From: an uncultured Bacteroidota bacterium | Lineage (GTDB): Bacteria; Bacteroidota; Bacteroidia; JABEUT01 | Length of the DNA stretch: 40,003 nucleotides | NCBI GenBank assembly: GCA_903916255.1 | Contig: CAIWVW010000040.1 | Coordinates: 1 to 40,003 of the forward strand | Direction of reading: 5' to 3' | Shown here: piece by piece, positions 10,219 through 17,981 of the stretch | Numbering within the stretch: position 1 is the stretch's first letter | Layout: each line of letters starts with the position of its first letter | Position numbers and translations under genes: made by a program | Notes under the pieces: model-generated | Told to the model about the DNA's origin: nothing | Databases searched by the model: none | What the model saw: only the letters and a program-made list of their open reading frames with translations

Positions 10219-11001
10219 TCAAGGCTTTATTATGAGTCCCTGGCAAGTGGGCAGCGAAAGGACTTTAACACCTTTCGAAGCGGCAAAGGCATCGTGTGCT
10301 AATTTTTGTTCTATGCATCCGGGGTAGCCATAATCATCGAGGATTATATATCCGCCGTGGACCATTTTATCCCAGAAAAATTCCAATGCCGCCACTTCCG
10401 GCTTCACCGAATTCATATCGATGGAAAGATAACAAACCTTTTGCGTTGGAACCTGTGCAAGCGTATCGGGAATTGGCCCTTTTATCAGTTCCACATTAAA
10501 TGGCGCAAAGGTCTTTTTCACTTTTTCATAGAGACTGCCGCTTTCTCCGTATTTCAGCTTTTTGCTTCGTTCCATTTCATACGGAGTGCTGTATCTTTCA
10601 TCCATTCCCGAGAAAGTATCGAGGAAATAATATTTTTTATTCAGCTTATTAAAATCTACATAATGAATAACTGCACGAGGGCAAAAGCCTGTATTTACGC
10701 CACAATCGACAAAATCGCCTTCCAAGTGCGCAGCCTGCGATGCGGCCCAACACAGTACATGAATTCTCCATTGAATATCGTAGTCCTTTAACAAATCGCC
10801 GCCAATTTCTTTACATAACCTATAGGCCTCAGCAAACCGGGGCTCTTTCATGAAATCGGCATTGTGGTATGTGTAAAGCAAATCATTGGCGTAAGTAATT
10901 TCTGATTTAGGCAACATGTAATAGTCATCTAAATTCATATTCCGATACCGGAATGCCTTTATCCACTTTTGCGGAAGTAATTTCTTTAACAGTTCTTTCA
11001 T
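10219..11001 (-). CDS. TylF-family (macrocin-type) O-methyltransferase
   Basis: This 260-residue protein belongs to the TylF/macrocin SAM-dependent O-methyltransferases. The SAM-binding block is GDFVDCGVNTG (residues about 95-105), followed by YYFLDTFSGMD and a metal-site segment LSIDMN plus GGYIILDDYG near the C-terminus. In polysaccharide loci these enzymes methylate sugar hydroxyls. Here the gene sits directly after the Wzt ATPase (4-base overlap) and before the glycosyltransferases, so the likely substrate is the nascent glycan, perhaps its non-reducing end. The family assignment is strong; the methylated position and whether it stops chain growth are inference. Confidence 0.87.
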   Translation of the reverse strand: MKELLKKLLPQKWIKAFRYRNMNLDDYYMLPKSEITYANDLLYTYHNADFMKEPRFAEAYRLCKEIGGDLLKDYDIQWRIHVLCWAASQAAHLEGDFVDCGVNTGFCPRAVIHYVDFNKLNKKYYFLDTFSGMDERYSTPYEMERSKKLKYGESGSLYEKVKKTFAPFNVELIKGPIPDTLAQVPTQKVCYLSIDMNSVKPEVAALEFFWDKMVHGGYIILDDYGYPGCIEQKLAHDAFAASKGVKVLSLPTCQGLIIKP

Positions 11002-12269: not shown

Positions 12270-13108
12270 CAAATTACATCGGCAAATGACTTTTCCACTT
12301 TCCTGAAATACCATATTCCAAGAATTAAAGACAAAATACATACTACAATGGACAGTAAAAATCCGGGTAAATACAAATTAGTTTTGCCGCCCAAAATACA
12401 CCAACGGAAGCCATCAATAACGCCAACCATAGGGTTTAGGGAATAGATGTACTTTACTGCTTCCGGAATTTTTACGCTTTGGTAAACATAATCGCTGCTG
12501 AATGCAACAGGAGAAATATACAACCCGAATTGCACAATGAATGGTACAAGGAATTTAAAGTCGCGGTACTTAACATTTAAAGCTGCTATGTAAATTCCGG
12601 CACCCATAGAAATCATGGTTGCCTGCAATAGGAAAACAGGAAGCAGAATAAGGTTCCATCCGGGCATGTACCGATAGTAAATCATAAACAGGAACAGAAT
12701 ACCCAGTGAAGTAAGGAAATCTATCAGGGAAACGATAATTGTGCTGGCAGGAACAATTAACCTTGGGAAATACACCTTGGTAAGCAAATTGGAATTAGCG
12801 AGCAGCGAATTGCTTGATTCGCTGAAAGCAGTAGAAAAAAACTGCCATGGCAATATAGCGGTGCAAACAAGTATGGCTCTTGGAACACCCGGCGGCGTAG
12901 CTGTATGCAACAACTTACCCAACACTATAAATATGATTATGGTAAGAAGCGGCTTAACTACACTCCAGGCAATGCCAATAACAGCTTGTTTGTAACGGAC
13001 TATCACATCGCGCCAGGCCAGGAAATAAAAAAGCCCGCGAAAATTCCACAAATCCCACCAATAATTTTTCCGTTTAGCTCCCGGCTCTATAATTATTCTG
13101 TTCTCCAT
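12269..13108 (-). CDS. wzm: Polysaccharide ABC exporter permease, Wzm-like (ABC-2)
   Basis: This 279-residue ABC-2 type permease starts with a cytoplasmic segment containing DLWNFRGLFYFLAWRD, the amphipathic gate helix typical of Wzm/TagG. About six hydrophobic membrane segments follow, and the ending is RWCILGGKTNLYLPG plus a last helix. It forms the channel for the glycan exported by the Wzt ATPase encoded immediately downstream with a one-base overlap. It is the first gene of the eight-gene operon. In the 167 bases upstream I see only a partial -7 match (TAATTTTA on the minus strand at 13177-13184), so the promoter is not settled. Confidence 0.92.
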   Translation of the reverse strand: MENRIIIEPGAKRKNYWWDLWNFRGLFYFLAWRDVIVRYKQAVIGIAWSVVKPLLTIIIFIVLGKLLHTATPPGVPRAILVCTAILPWQFFSTAFSESSNSLLANSNLLTKVYFPRLIVPASTIIVSLIDFLTSLGILFLFMIYYRYMPGWNLILLPVFLLQATMISMGAGIYIAALNVKYRDFKFLVPFIVQFGLYISPVAFSSDYVYQSVKIPEAVKYIYSLNPMVGVIDGFRWCILGGKTNLYLPGFLLSIVVCILSLILGIWYFRKVEKSFADVI

Positions 13109-14537: not shown

Positions 14538-14741
14538 TTACTTAGCAGCTTTCTTGGTGCCTTTCTTGGAACCGGCGTTAGCAGCTTTATTGGTACCTTT
14601 CTTGGAACCTTCTTTTTTACCTGCTTTCTTATCAGTTTTGGCTGAAGCAGCCTTTGCCGGAGCAGCAGCTGGAGCAGTTTGTGCGAAAGAAACACCTGCA
14701 ACTAAGAGAACACCTGCGAGAACTAAACTTAACTTTTTCAT
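14538..14741 (-). CDS. Small lysine/alanine-rich exported protein, copy A
   Basis: This 67-residue protein has a clear signal peptide, MKKLSLVLAGVLLVAGVSFA, with cleavage expected after FA or FAQ. The mature part of about 46 residues consists mostly of Lys, Ala, Gly and Thr with GSKKGTKK-like repeats, and is predicted to be disordered and very basic. No Cys and no enzymatic motif is visible. Two paralogues occur at 14893-15123 and 17721-17912 with almost the same signal peptide and related promoters. In composition it recalls the periplasmic acid-shock protein Asr of enterobacteria, but that is analogy, not shown homology. Its upstream 71 bases are 69/71 identical to those of copy B. A hairpin terminator follows the stop. 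Confidence 0.82.
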   Translation of the reverse strand: MKKLSLVLAGVLLVAGVSFAQTAPAAAPAKAASAKTDKKAGKKEGSKKGTNKAANAGSKKGTKKAAK

Positions 14742-14812
14742 TTGGATTTGAATATTTAATTGTTAAAAATCTGAAAGCAAAATTACAGTTGCAACATGAA
14801 GGGGGTATGAAG
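14742..14812 (-). repeat. 71-bp upstream repeat, copy A (leader, -7 box, tandem half-sites)
   Basis: The 71 bases before the start codon differ from 15124-15194 at only two positions, and similarity stops abruptly beyond the distal half-site. The block comprises the untranslated leader, the -7 box and two CTTCAT half-sites, so the repeat covers exactly the putative control region. Confidence 0.9.
14778..14812 (-). promoter_or_regulatory. Promoter of copy A with tandem CTTCAT half-sites
   Basis: On the minus strand the order is CTTCAT (14807-14812), 5 bases, CTTCAT (14796-14801), 10 bases, then the -7 box TAATTTTG (14778-14785, full match to TAnnTTTG). The half-sites repeat directly every 11 bp and occupy the -35 region, the layout expected of a PhoB/OmpR-type activator site. 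The same spacing is found at the two paralogous genes. Confidence 0.6.
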
Positions 14813-14843
14813 GGGTATATAATTCTCTATTTTATAGAATACA

Positions 14844-14871
14844 AAAACCCTGACTTTTAAATCAAGGTTTT
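14844..14871 (-). terminator. Hairpin terminator behind lysine-rich gene copy B
   Basis: AAAACC, one mismatch and TGA (14844-14853) pair with TCA, one mismatch and GGTTTT (14862-14871) across an 8-base loop. It lies 21 bases downstream of the copy B stop codon, with a T-rich run following on the minus strand. Confidence 0.5.
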
Positions 14872-14892
14872 ATGTATTATGAATTACATTAA

Positions 14893-15123
14893 TTACTTTT
14901 TAGCGTTCATTTCAGCTTTTTGAGCTTTGGCAGCTTTTTTGTCAGATTTAGCTGCTCGTTTGTCAGACTTGGCAGTCTTTTTGTCTGCTTTGGCAACCTT
15001 CTTCTCTTGGTTAGCAGATTTTTTTTCTGTTTTTGGTGTTGTTACCTGAGATGGGGCACTCTGAGCGAAAGCAATTCCACTTACTAAAAGAACACCGGCA
15101 ATAACTAAACTTAACTTTTTCAT
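14893..15123 (-). CDS. Small lysine-rich exported protein, copy B
   Basis: This 76-residue protein has the signal peptide MKKLSLVIAGVLLVSGIAFA and then a mature region dominated by Lys, Ala, Ser, Asp and Gln. That region contains imperfect repeats of the type AKSDKKAAK, likely disordered or weakly helical. No Cys or catalytic motif is visible. It is the tandem neighbour of copy A, 151 bases away, in the same direction, with a near-identical upstream region but a clearly different mature sequence. Export to the periplasm is supported by the signal peptide. A polycationic role such as envelope-polymer binding, pH buffering or a chaperone-like role is speculative. Each copy has its own promoter and terminator, so they are not one operon. 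Confidence 0.82.
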   Translation of the reverse strand: MKKLSLVIAGVLLVSGIAFAQSAPSQVTTPKTEKKSANQEKKVAKADKKTAKSDKRAAKSDKKAAKAQKAEMNAKK

Positions 15124-15194
15124 TTGGATTTGAATATTTAATGGTTAAAAATCTGAAAGTAAAATTACAGTTGCAACATGAAGGGGGTATGAAG
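15124..15194 (-). repeat. 71-bp upstream repeat, copy B
   Basis: This block is 69/71 identical to 14742-14812. One of the two differences changes the last base of the -7 box, from G to A on the minus strand, so this promoter may be weaker. Confidence 0.9.
15160..15194 (-). promoter_or_regulatory. Promoter of copy B with tandem CTTCAT half-sites
   Basis: On the minus strand, CTTCAT (15189-15194), 5 bases, CTTCAT (15178-15183), 10 bases and then TAATTTTA (15160-15167, one mismatch to TAnnTTTG). Spacing is identical to copies A and C. Confidence 0.55.
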
Positions 15195-15239
15195 AGTTGG
15201 TATTATTTACAAAAATAAAACACCGTAAAATATCCGGCT

Positions 15240-16004
15240 TTACTTTAAAGCACATTGCATTACCCCGGTAATATTCATATTTTCGGCATTTTGCAGAAAG
15301 CAAATTAATTTACTTTCCGACAAATTTACATGAGGTGCATCTATTTCGATTTTTCCTGATTCCGAGTTTAGTTTTATGCTTTTAAATACCCGCGCAACGT
15401 TTTCATGTGTAAGGGTTTTATGCGAATTCTCACCTTTTTTTACATAGGTAGTAAGATTTGATTCCACCACTGCAAAATTCAGGGTGCAGCCTGCAATATT
15501 ACCCGATATATTATATTCAATTTCAATTTTCGAATTACCTGTTTTGTGTGTTTTACAATCAATTCTTACGGAAGAACCTGTTTGTAATTCTGTCGCTATG
15601 GCACTATTAATTTGGTCTGCATCGCTACCCACCATTTCGGTTTTACCATTTATTATAGCCTGCGGAGTATAAATTGAATTTAACTTTAAAAAATCCCTAT
15701 AGTTTTGTTGCCTTTGCGAATATTCCGGCATAGCAAAAGTATCTTTCCAGCCGAGGTAATCCCAATAATCCACATGAAATTCTATTACATAAACGGGCAA
15801 TGATTGCGCATTTGCTTTTTGAATCAATTTATGCATAAGGGCCTCTGCGGGCGGGCAACTGGAGCAGCCTTCCGAAGAAAATAACTCTATTACCGCAAAT
15901 CCTTTTGAACTTACAGGAACCGGTTTGCTTTTATTTCCAAATGCCAAACAAGCGCAGATACTTGCAGTGCCCGCTAAAGTTAAAATTATTCCCCTTTTCA
16001 TCAT
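15240..16004 (-). CDS. DUF1223 family exported thioredoxin-like protein
   Basis: This 254-residue protein matches DUF1223, a thioredoxin-fold family. After an N-terminal signal-like segment (the Cys residues near 17-19 could also make it a lipoprotein), it has the family hallmark VIELFSSEGCSSCPPAE with the CxxC pair Cys47-Cys50. FHVDYWDYLGW and a YTPQAIINGK segment equivalent to the cis-Pro loop follow. The C-terminal half is a beta-rich domain. It should act outside the cytoplasm in a thiol redox reaction, but no substrate is established for the family. It lies 55 bases after the molybdoenzyme gene, same strand, and a partial -7 match (TATCTTTC) upstream could give it its own promoter. A functional link to the molybdoenzyme is inference. 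Confidence 0.87.
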   Translation of the reverse strand: MMKRGIILTLAGTASICACLAFGNKSKPVPVSSKGFAVIELFSSEGCSSCPPAEALMHKLIQKANAQSLPVYVIEFHVDYWDYLGWKDTFAMPEYSQRQQNYRDFLKLNSIYTPQAIINGKTEMVGSDADQINSAIATELQTGSSVRIDCKTHKTGNSKIEIEYNISGNIAGCTLNFAVVESNLTTYVKKGENSHKTLTHENVARVFKSIKLNSESGKIEIDAPHVNLSESKLICFLQNAENMNITGVMQCALK

Positions 16005-16059
16005 TTGTTTTTGAAAGATACGGAATACCTCTCCGCTATGGTTTGTTAAAGAAACTTAA

Positions 16060-16869
16060 CTACAAAGCTGCATCATAATCATACCCCCGCTCAAACCAAT
16101 AATCTTTCGGTCGGGTGTCTGAAAAATACATATAAGCAATGCGCTTAATATGCTTAACTCCATACTTAATAGGAATAATGAGCCGCAGAGGATATCCATG
16201 CTCCATAGGCAGGATAGAGTCATTCATTTCGTATGCTAAAATGGTTTGCGGGTGCATAATGCTTTTCATATCAACACCTACATAATAGGCGCTATCGGGC
16301 GTCATTAAGCCTACATATTTATACATATCCTCCGGATGATTGGGGTCAGGTGCTTTCCCGCTATGGGTGCCCAAATGGTAGTGAATTAAAAAATCGGAAA
16401 ACCTCACTCCGGCCCAGTTTGTTATCTGGCTCCAGCCTTCAATGCATTTAAAATCGAATGTTATTTCAGTCCTCGGCAGCGCTTCTATTTCTTCTATTTT
16501 TAAATATAATACCGAATCTGGAGATGTGCTTTCCGGATGGCGGGTTACGGTAAGTTTCCATCTGGATGCATCGAAATAATCGCCCATGCCGATATCGCCA
16601 TTTGCCCGAACATGCTTCACAGCTTTATCTTTCGGATATTCTTTCACTAAATGATTGGAACTGAAAAATACATTATTCACTTTTTCATTTACATCCAAAA
16701 CTTTCCGGAGAGGGCCTAAGGCCCCGTTATCGGTATCGCGTGTATTAAGCCAGTGCCAGCCAATAATTAACGTTCCAATAAAAACAAAAAAAACGGCAAA
16801 GGAAATTATCATCCTCCTGCGGATATATTTACCTGATTTCTCTTCTTCTTCCAATTCCTTTTTTTTCAT
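16060..16869 (-). CDS. Membrane-anchored molybdopterin oxidoreductase, YedY/MsrP-like fold
   Basis: This 269-residue protein carries the oxidoreductase molybdopterin-binding (SUOX/YedY) domain. The segment FKCIEGWSQITNWAGVRFSDFL, at about 140-161, contains the predicted molybdenum-ligating Cys142. A closing GYPLRLIIPIKYGVKHIK block typical of the family follows. The N-terminus has a charged stretch, three arginines (17-19) and one hydrophobic helix at about 20-40, compatible with an uncleaved Tat-type signal anchor. The active domain would face the periplasm. The start codon overlaps the cytochrome gene's stop by 4 bases, so the two proteins probably form one complex receiving electrons from or giving them to the membrane. 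The substrate is not predictable; methionine sulfoxide repair as for MsrPQ is only one possibility. Confidence 0.87.
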   Translation of the reverse strand: MKKKELEEEEKSGKYIRRRMIISFAVFFVFIGTLIIGWHWLNTRDTDNGALGPLRKVLDVNEKVNNVFFSSNHLVKEYPKDKAVKHVRANGDIGMGDYFDASRWKLTVTRHPESTSPDSVLYLKIEEIEALPRTEITFDFKCIEGWSQITNWAGVRFSDFLIHYHLGTHSGKAPDPNHPEDMYKYVGLMTPDSAYYVGVDMKSIMHPQTILAYEMNDSILPMEHGYPLRLIIPIKYGVKHIKRIAYMYFSDTRPKDYWFERGYDYDAAL

Positions 16870-17594
16870 GCTTGTGTTGTTGCCGGTTTTTCTTCCACAG
16901 GTGCAGGTTCTTCCATAGGTATAGGTTTCGCTTTTTTTATTTCAAAGCCTGTAACCATTGCCTGAAAATTGTTCCAGCCGGTAATAATCACCTGTATTAT
17001 ATGAATAAGGAAGAAAACCACATACCCGATGGTAAGCGCAAAATGTTCTACCCTCGCCCATTCATAGCCGCCCAAAATGGCACATAACCACCCAAATTGA
17101 GTGGGTTTGTATATGGATAAACCAGTAATTAACGAACCAAAACCCATTACAATAATAGCGCTATAAGCAATCCGTTGTGCCGCATTATATTTTATATGGG
17201 GTGGTTCATATTTCCGGATGTGCAAATCATGCAACAATACCTGCCATGCCTCTTTAAACGACTTGCGGTTTGGAAGCAGCAATCTCCATTCGCCGGAAAT
17301 AATAGTGTATAGTACATATATGAAGCCGTTCACGAAAAACAGCCACATGAAGAAAAAATGCAGGGCCATTCCATCCGAAAGGCGGCCATCGAGGTTAAGT
17401 GCACTGTAAAAAGAATCTGGGAAAAATTTCAACACTGTTTTATCGCCCCAGCCTATGCGGTAAATATCGTTTGCCCAATAAATCATTATCCCGCTGTAAA
17501 TCATAACCCCCAATACAGGGAAATTGACCCAGTGCGCCCATCTGATAACTAAGGGATGCTTTTTTATTATTTTTCTCTTTCCGGGGGAAACCAT
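16866..17594 (-). CDS. Cytochrome b561/Ni-hydrogenase-type b subunit, partner of the molybdoenzyme
   Basis: This 242-residue protein has four transmembrane helices and the His pattern of bacterial b-type cytochromes: HPLVIRWAHWVNF (His21) in helix 1, ALHFFFMW (His79) in helix 2, and RVEHFALTIGYVVFFLIH (His184, His198) in helix 4. These are candidate ligands for one or two haems. A Pro/Glu-rich tail of about 25 residues follows. It should shuttle electrons between the quinone pool and the molybdoenzyme encoded directly downstream with a 4-base overlap. It is not homologous-looking to MsrQ/YedZ, so the pair is a variant. A weak -7-like box (TATATTTA, minus strand, 17609-17616) lies just upstream. 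Confidence 0.85.
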   Translation of the reverse strand: MVSPGKRKIIKKHPLVIRWAHWVNFPVLGVMIYSGIMIYWANDIYRIGWGDKTVLKFFPDSFYSALNLDGRLSDGMALHFFFMWLFFVNGFIYVLYTIISGEWRLLLPNRKSFKEAWQVLLHDLHIRKYEPPHIKYNAAQRIAYSAIIVMGFGSLITGLSIYKPTQFGWLCAILGGYEWARVEHFALTIGYVVFFLIHIIQVIITGWNNFQAMVTGFEIKKAKPIPMEEPAPVEEKPATTQA

Positions 17595-17672
17595 TAAACT
17601 TGAAAAGTTAAATATATGGAATGTTTTGAAACTCCATTATTTCACAGGCCTATGAAAGTTGATGCAAAACAA

Positions 17673-17697
17673 AAAGCCCCGCAAATTGCGAGGCTCT
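17673..17697 (-). terminator. Hairpin terminator behind lysine-rich gene copy C
   Basis: AGCCCCGC at 17675-17682 pairs with GCGAGGCT at 17688-17695 around a 5-base loop, with one G-U pair. On the minus strand it is followed by a T run, a standard intrinsic terminator 24 bases after the stop. Confidence 0.8.
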
Positions 17698-17720
17698 TTG
17701 TGTGCTTAAAAAGCGCTAAA

Positions 17721-17912
17721 TTATTTCTTGTCAGCAGCTTTCTTGTCCATCTTCTTGTCAGACTTCTTGTCCATCTTGGTAGATTTCTTGTCGGTCTTGG
17801 TGGTGGTGGTCTTCTTGTCGGTCTTGGTAGTGGTGGTGGTGGTTTTGTCTTGTGCAAAAGAAACACCTGCTACGAAAAGAACGCTTGCGAGAACTAAACT
17901 TAACTTTTTCAT
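17721..17912 (-). CDS. Small lysine/threonine-rich exported protein, copy C
   Basis: This 63-residue protein has the signal peptide MKKLSLVLASVLFVAGVSFA and a mature part built almost only of Lys, Thr, Asp, Ser and Met, in repeats such as KTDKKTTTT and KKSDKKMDKK. It contains no Cys, no aromatic residues and no motif. It is a third paralogue of the two genes at 14538-15123. The signal peptide and leader are conserved, while the mature repeat differs from Ala-rich to Thr/Asp-rich. It has its own promoter with the tandem CTTCAT half-sites and its own terminator. Predicted to be periplasmic and disordered. The repetitive DNA also opens spurious frames on both strands, which I do not call. Confidence 0.8.
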   Translation of the reverse strand: MKKLSLVLASVLFVAGVSFAQDKTTTTTTKTDKKTTTTKTDKKSTKMDKKSDKKMDKKAADKK

Positions 17913-17946
17913 TTGGATTTATTTGTTTAATGGTTAATTAATGGTG

Positions 17947-17981
17947 CGAAACTATTCTTACTAGATGAAGATATTATGAAG
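17947..17981 (-). promoter_or_regulatory. Promoter of copy C with tandem CTTCAT half-sites
   Basis: On the minus strand, CTTCAT (17976-17981), 5 bases, CTTCAT (17965-17970), 10 bases, then TAGTTTCG (17947-17954, one mismatch to TAnnTTTG). The surrounding bases differ from copies A and B, so conservation of the half-sites and of exact spacing is informative. Confidence 0.6.

Follow-up and report, generated by a model that had tools for sequence, protein, structure and literature searches.

A putative CTTCAT direct-repeat operator upstream of secreted lysine-rich proteins in Bacteroidota, and its probable PmrA-like regulator

Three lysine-rich genes in a 40,003-nucleotide stretch of DNA from an uncultured Bacteroidota bacterium (the whole of which we call the window) share a promoter arrangement of two CTTCAT repeats and a TAnnTTTG box. 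The arrangement raises the question of whether the repeats form an operator and, if so, which regulator reads it. To our knowledge, few response-regulator operators are known in Bacteroidota. Here we computed the design of the site, its genome-wide recurrence, the class of its target genes, the linkage of regulators to it in other genera and the PmrA contacts that those regulators keep.

Results

The full pattern, CTTCAT-N5-CTTCAT-N10-TAnnTTTG, is present on the minus strand at 14778-14812, 15160-15194 and 17947-17981, where an earlier note on this DNA had placed it, and each copy has a 10-base spacer between half-site and box. The first site, CTTCATACCCCCTTCATGTTGCAACTGTAATTTTG, matches the pattern exactly: its upstream and downstream half-sites (14807-14812 and 14796-14801) are both intact CTTCAT, its -7 box TAATTTTG (14778-14785) follows 10 bases after the downstream half-site, and the start codon of gene 1 stands 37 bases past the box. 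The second site is like the first except for its box, TAATTTTA (15160-15167), which has one mismatch, with exact half-sites at 15178-15194. The third, CTTCATAATATCTTCATCTAGTAAGAATAGTTTCG, again has exact half-sites (17965-17981) and a single mismatch, located in its -7 box TAGTTTCG (17947-17954). Upstream, copies 1 and 2 are nearly identical and, judged by sequence, their promoters are a recent duplication; the flanks of copy 3 are unrelated to them, as the same note had observed.

Downstream of each site lies a protein of 63-76 amino acids whose predicted signal peptide is followed by a lysine-rich remainder, all encoded on the minus strand: gene 1 (14538-14741; 67 amino acids) is Lys/Ala-rich after its signal peptide (MKKLSLVLAGVLLVAGVSFAQ...), gene 2 (14893-15123; 76 amino acids) is Lys-rich and gene 3 (17721-17912; 63 amino acids) is Lys/Thr-rich. 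The peptides have no convincing match among Pfam families. Against the NCBIfam model of the acid-shock protein Asr (NF033636) the three score 14.9, 19.9 and 20.5 bits, below its cut-off of 50, and this similarity may reflect composition alone. Between the Lys-rich genes, at 16060-17594 on the minus strand, a gene with a molybdopterin oxidoreductase domain adjoins a cytochrome b561-type gene, and a DUF1223 protein with thioredoxin-like similarity is encoded at 15240-16004 (minus strand), downstream of the gene 3 group.

The repeats recur well beyond these three places. With up to two mismatches, the window holds 12 matches to the two half-sites, compared with 4.3 +/- 2.1 in shuffled sequence, and that number was reached in 0 of 100 shuffles. 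Pattern searches of the window's own genome (3.74 Mb in 149 contigs) returned 20 matches to the full pattern at up to two mismatches and one match to the reversed pattern. At up to one mismatch, the pattern is present in 11/11 genomes of the genus and its reverse in none. When the spacer was left free (N{0,28}), 32 of the 34 exact sites still had a spacer of 10 bases and the other two had one of 11. Across 86 distinct sites in the genus, half-sites and -7 box hardly vary, a constancy partly made by a search that allowed at most one mismatch, while the inner five bases are almost free and the flanks vary. The proposal in the earlier note that spacing and half-sites are conserved beyond simple duplication is upheld, and the genome-wide scan that it called for yields many targets of one kind.

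A further claim of that note, that the promoters lack a -33 element, also stands: TTG occupies the -33 position in 2/86 genus sites, no more than the 4/86 in a same-sized upstream window. In other genera TTG is present at that position in 41/132 sites. A third upstream half-site, as in a longer tandem array, was looked for and none was found. Direct half-sites with an 11-bp period, held at a fixed distance from a -10 type box and overlapping the -35/-33 region, are the arrangement of an OmpR/PhoB-type operator.

The genes behind the sites form a coherent class. Using a simple home-made hydrophobicity rule for signal peptides, we predicted a secreted open reading frame within about 170 bases downstream of 79/86 genus sites, and 62/86 precede a frame of at most 150 amino acids in which Lys+Arg+His make up at least 20% of the part beyond the signal. 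The same rule gave 231 secreted and 43 small basic frames for 1,850 random positions, and 75 (20%) and 8 (2%), respectively, for 371 TAnnTTTG boxes without CTTCA. The targets in the genus comprise Lys-rich peptides (MKKLSLILA...), a group beginning MKLTNVIATG..., His-rich peptides, a group of 105-122 amino acids beginning MKTNK..., and DUF6600 proteins, which repeatedly bear the same promoter design (G000:C1:7162-8608 and G000:C6:3303-4502, with relatives such as L080, L082 and L302). Depending on the genome, one to three of the peptide genes lie between deoxyhypusine synthase-like and ABC-F-like genes, names that were read from the translations; this tandem array of site-bearing Lys-rich genes (L040, G000:C81:1910-3054; L245, L246 and L259) occupies the same place in relatives. 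Lipid A modification genes were absent from the pattern hits.

Outside the genus, an exact-pattern scan of named genomes found at least 117 loci, mostly in Flavobacterium, Pontibacter and Rufibacter, and the matches listed extend to Adhaeribacter, Chitinophaga, Botryobacter, Sabulibacter and several metagenome-assembled genomes. Among these listed matches the downstream genes again encode secreted Lys/Ala-rich proteins, of 58-75 amino acids in Flavobacterium and mostly 240-350 in Pontibacter and Rufibacter. The same arrangement is found in Flavobacterium johnsoniae (strain CI04, L185). In an even sample of the class the exact pattern matches 7/396 genomes and 2/203 genera, so the exact half-site is patchy in its distribution; relatives may use drifted boxes.

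These loci also point to a regulator. The window's own genome encodes seven OmpR-type regulators, one of which is here called C74. Among the matches listed, exact sites in other genera are accompanied by about 79 regulator genes, and 74 of these encode proteins closest to C74, its orthologues at 51-65% identity. The C74 gene (G000:C74:56160-56837) and that of its kinase (C74:56852-58162) both lie outside the window. In Flavobacterium the order is site, peptide, regulator, kinase, site, peptide, all in one direction, and in two loci (L148 and L167) a site stands directly upstream of the regulator gene. In a phylogenetic tree C74 groups with the site-linked regulators (100/99) and C6, another regulator of the genome, groups with C86. 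An OmpR-type regulator is linked to CTTCAT sites in other genera. C74 orthologues (78-91% identity) are encoded in 10/11 genus genomes, the exception being a genome that is 52% complete. A second paralogue of the C74 regulator, 39-45% identical, exists in six genus genomes (G001:C30, G002:C1, G005:C11, G007:C86, G009:C22 and G010:C69; L225-L230). For the kinase of C74 (L043) the best-scoring family is PorY, known from the regulation of type IX secretion; at 243.6 bits against a cut-off of 350 we did not count the kinase as a member, and its partner is OmpR-type rather than PorX.

Among NCBIfam models, C74 scores best with PmrA (NF007928), at 197.7 bits, below the cut-off of 330. In the PmrA-DNA structure, the base readers are Asn188 and Asn196 in the recognition helix and Arg210 in the wing, and Thr187, Val192 and His195 make hydrophobic contacts (PMC4660055). 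The site-linked regulators, among the matches listed, carry a near-invariant helix, SN[YF][IV]DVH[IV][KR]N[LI]RKK, and mostly a TVRxxGY wing. Mapped by eye from the numbering in the papers, these motifs imply that Asn188, Val192, His193, Asn196 and Arg210 are kept and that His195 is replaced by Lys or Arg; C74 itself has all three base readers on this mapping. PmrA boxes consist of CTTAAG and XTTAAT half-sites with five bases between them (PMC3973317), and CTTCAT differs from the PmrA half-site (YTTAAT/CTTAAG) by one base per half-site.

Discussion

From these observations it seems that a C74-type, PmrA-like response regulator binds the CTTCAT box and switches on the regulon, a reading to which we assign a probability of roughly 0.7. 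The earlier note had foreseen an activator-dependent regulon, and the OmpR/PhoB-type site, the missing -33 element, the many targets of like kind and the linked OmpR-type regulator agree with it. Its choice of regulator held in part: the geometry of the OmpR/PhoB family, direct half-sites with an 11-bp period that end 10 bases short of the -7 box, stood, and PhoB itself did not.

Were the repeats degenerate pho boxes, as that note had suggested, the genes behind them would be phosphate-starvation genes. Pho boxes do share the 11-bp direct repeat and its place about 10 bases ahead of a -10 type box, and the genome does encode a PhoB-like regulator, C22, which adjoins a PhoR-like kinase, a PhoU-like/PiT pair, a porin and PstS. 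The genome's own PiT and porin promoters, however, carry TTAACA-N5-TTAACA rather than CTTCAT (L042, G000:C22; about 10595-10640 before the PhoU-like/PiT genes and 12475-12520 before the porin, in contig coordinates), a repeat that is likely this genome's pho box. A Riemerella regulator named PhoP is reported to have a TTTAACA motif by DAP-seq (PMC9603813). No phosphate gene is found among the CTTCAT hits, and the roughly 79 site-linked regulators of other genera include, among the matches listed, neither a PhoB orthologue nor any closest to C22. We therefore reject PhoB on the genome's own pho-type boxes and on linkage, and regard the pho-box reading as extremely improbable; the 11-bp geometry that they have in common belongs to the OmpR/PhoB class as a whole and does not single out PhoB. 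Scarcely better placed, and very improbable in our judgement, is an account in which the promoters resemble one another through duplication of a gene family with its upstream DNA and involve no specific activator. Genes 1 and 2 were plainly duplicated together with their promoters, and relatives carry between one and three copies in the peptide array, yet half-sites and box hold near-constant where inner spacer and flanks vary, and the same design, with its spacing held at 10 bases, occurs in other orders and before unrelated proteins such as DUF6600.

The rival that deserves most attention is C6, a CusR/CopR-like regulator of the heavy-metal family, which would bind the site and make the peptides part of a metal response. 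A C6-type regulator is the next gene after a site-bearing Lys-rich peptide gene in six genus genomes (G000, G003, G004, G005, G008 and G010), C6 stands ahead of a TolC/MFP/RND efflux set, and the C74 operon in the window's own genus has neither a site nor a direct link to one. In the own genome the order is site-bearing Lys-rich gene, terminator-like hairpin, CusR-like regulator, kinase, and TolC, MFP and RND genes (L038; G000:C6:56000-62749). In the sequences that were inspected, the peptide gene is followed by a hairpin with a T run, and a further -7-like box stands ahead of the regulator gene, so that the two are probably transcribed separately. C6 differs from the site-linked regulators of other genera also in its DNA-binding surface, having TNLIDVYINYLRTK and TVIGRGY and lacking two of the three PmrA-type base readers (Asn196 and Arg210). 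Among the matches listed, a clear C6 orthologue accounts for one of about 79 linked regulators, and that one comes from a genome of the window's own genus. We consider control by C6 unlikely.

Under the preferred reading, with C74 as activator, the CTTCAT repeats would be the operator of a response-regulator regulon, on which the two DNA-binding domains of the OmpR-family, PmrA-like protein would sit head-to-tail. The bound regulator would take the place of the absent -33 contact and bring sigma-A RNA polymerase to the TAnnTTTG box, which lies 10 bases further downstream. Activation would depend on phosphorylation, and the signal may be a stress on the envelope or its charge, for example from low pH, metals or cationic peptides. 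The output would be secreted, mostly small, Lys/His-rich proteins of the periplasm or surface, together with DUF6600 envelope proteins.

The closest parallel is PmrA/BasR of enterobacteria, which responds to iron, aluminium, low pH or polymyxin. The two systems share an OmpR-family regulator, tandem half-sites separated by five bases, a position in the -35 region and kept base-contact residues; they differ in the half-site (CTTAAT there, CTTCAT here) and in the regulator, which here falls under the PmrA cut-off. They also differ in output: enterobacterial PmrA modifies lipid A, whereas the targets seen here are secreted polycationic proteins. A second parallel is Asr, a disordered periplasmic chaperone that is strongly acid-induced (PMC10746267). 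The peptides resemble it in being small, secreted, Lys-rich, probably disordered and, by our prediction, under a two-component system, and differ in their weak, sub-threshold sequence similarity. The Lys/His-rich proteins of the regulon in general are probably disordered, and by analogy such polycations could possibly be protective, neutralising envelope charge, or serving as buffers or chaperones during acid, metal or cationic stress. More tentatively, and as a possibility that we hold to be doubtful, a PmrA-like two-component system may operate across several Bacteroidota orders as an envelope charge-stress response in which disordered polycations shield or buffer the envelope, with no lipid A modification.

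The open-access literature searched held nothing relevant on a CTTCAT box, a Flavobacterium Lys-rich regulon or a Bacteroidota PmrA, and no such motif appears in the main text of a paper on F. psychrophilum transcription starts. The regulatory system is real, coherent, linked to a regulator and absent from the open-access literature searched; the identity of its activator is probable, as judged from sequence. An operator, its promoter geometry, a likely regulator and kinase, and a coherent set of small secreted targets have been obtained from sequence alone. The shared promoter design gives DUF6600, a family of unknown function, a regulatory context. F. johnsoniae is genetically tractable, so that the regulator, the signal and the function of the peptides would be directly testable there.
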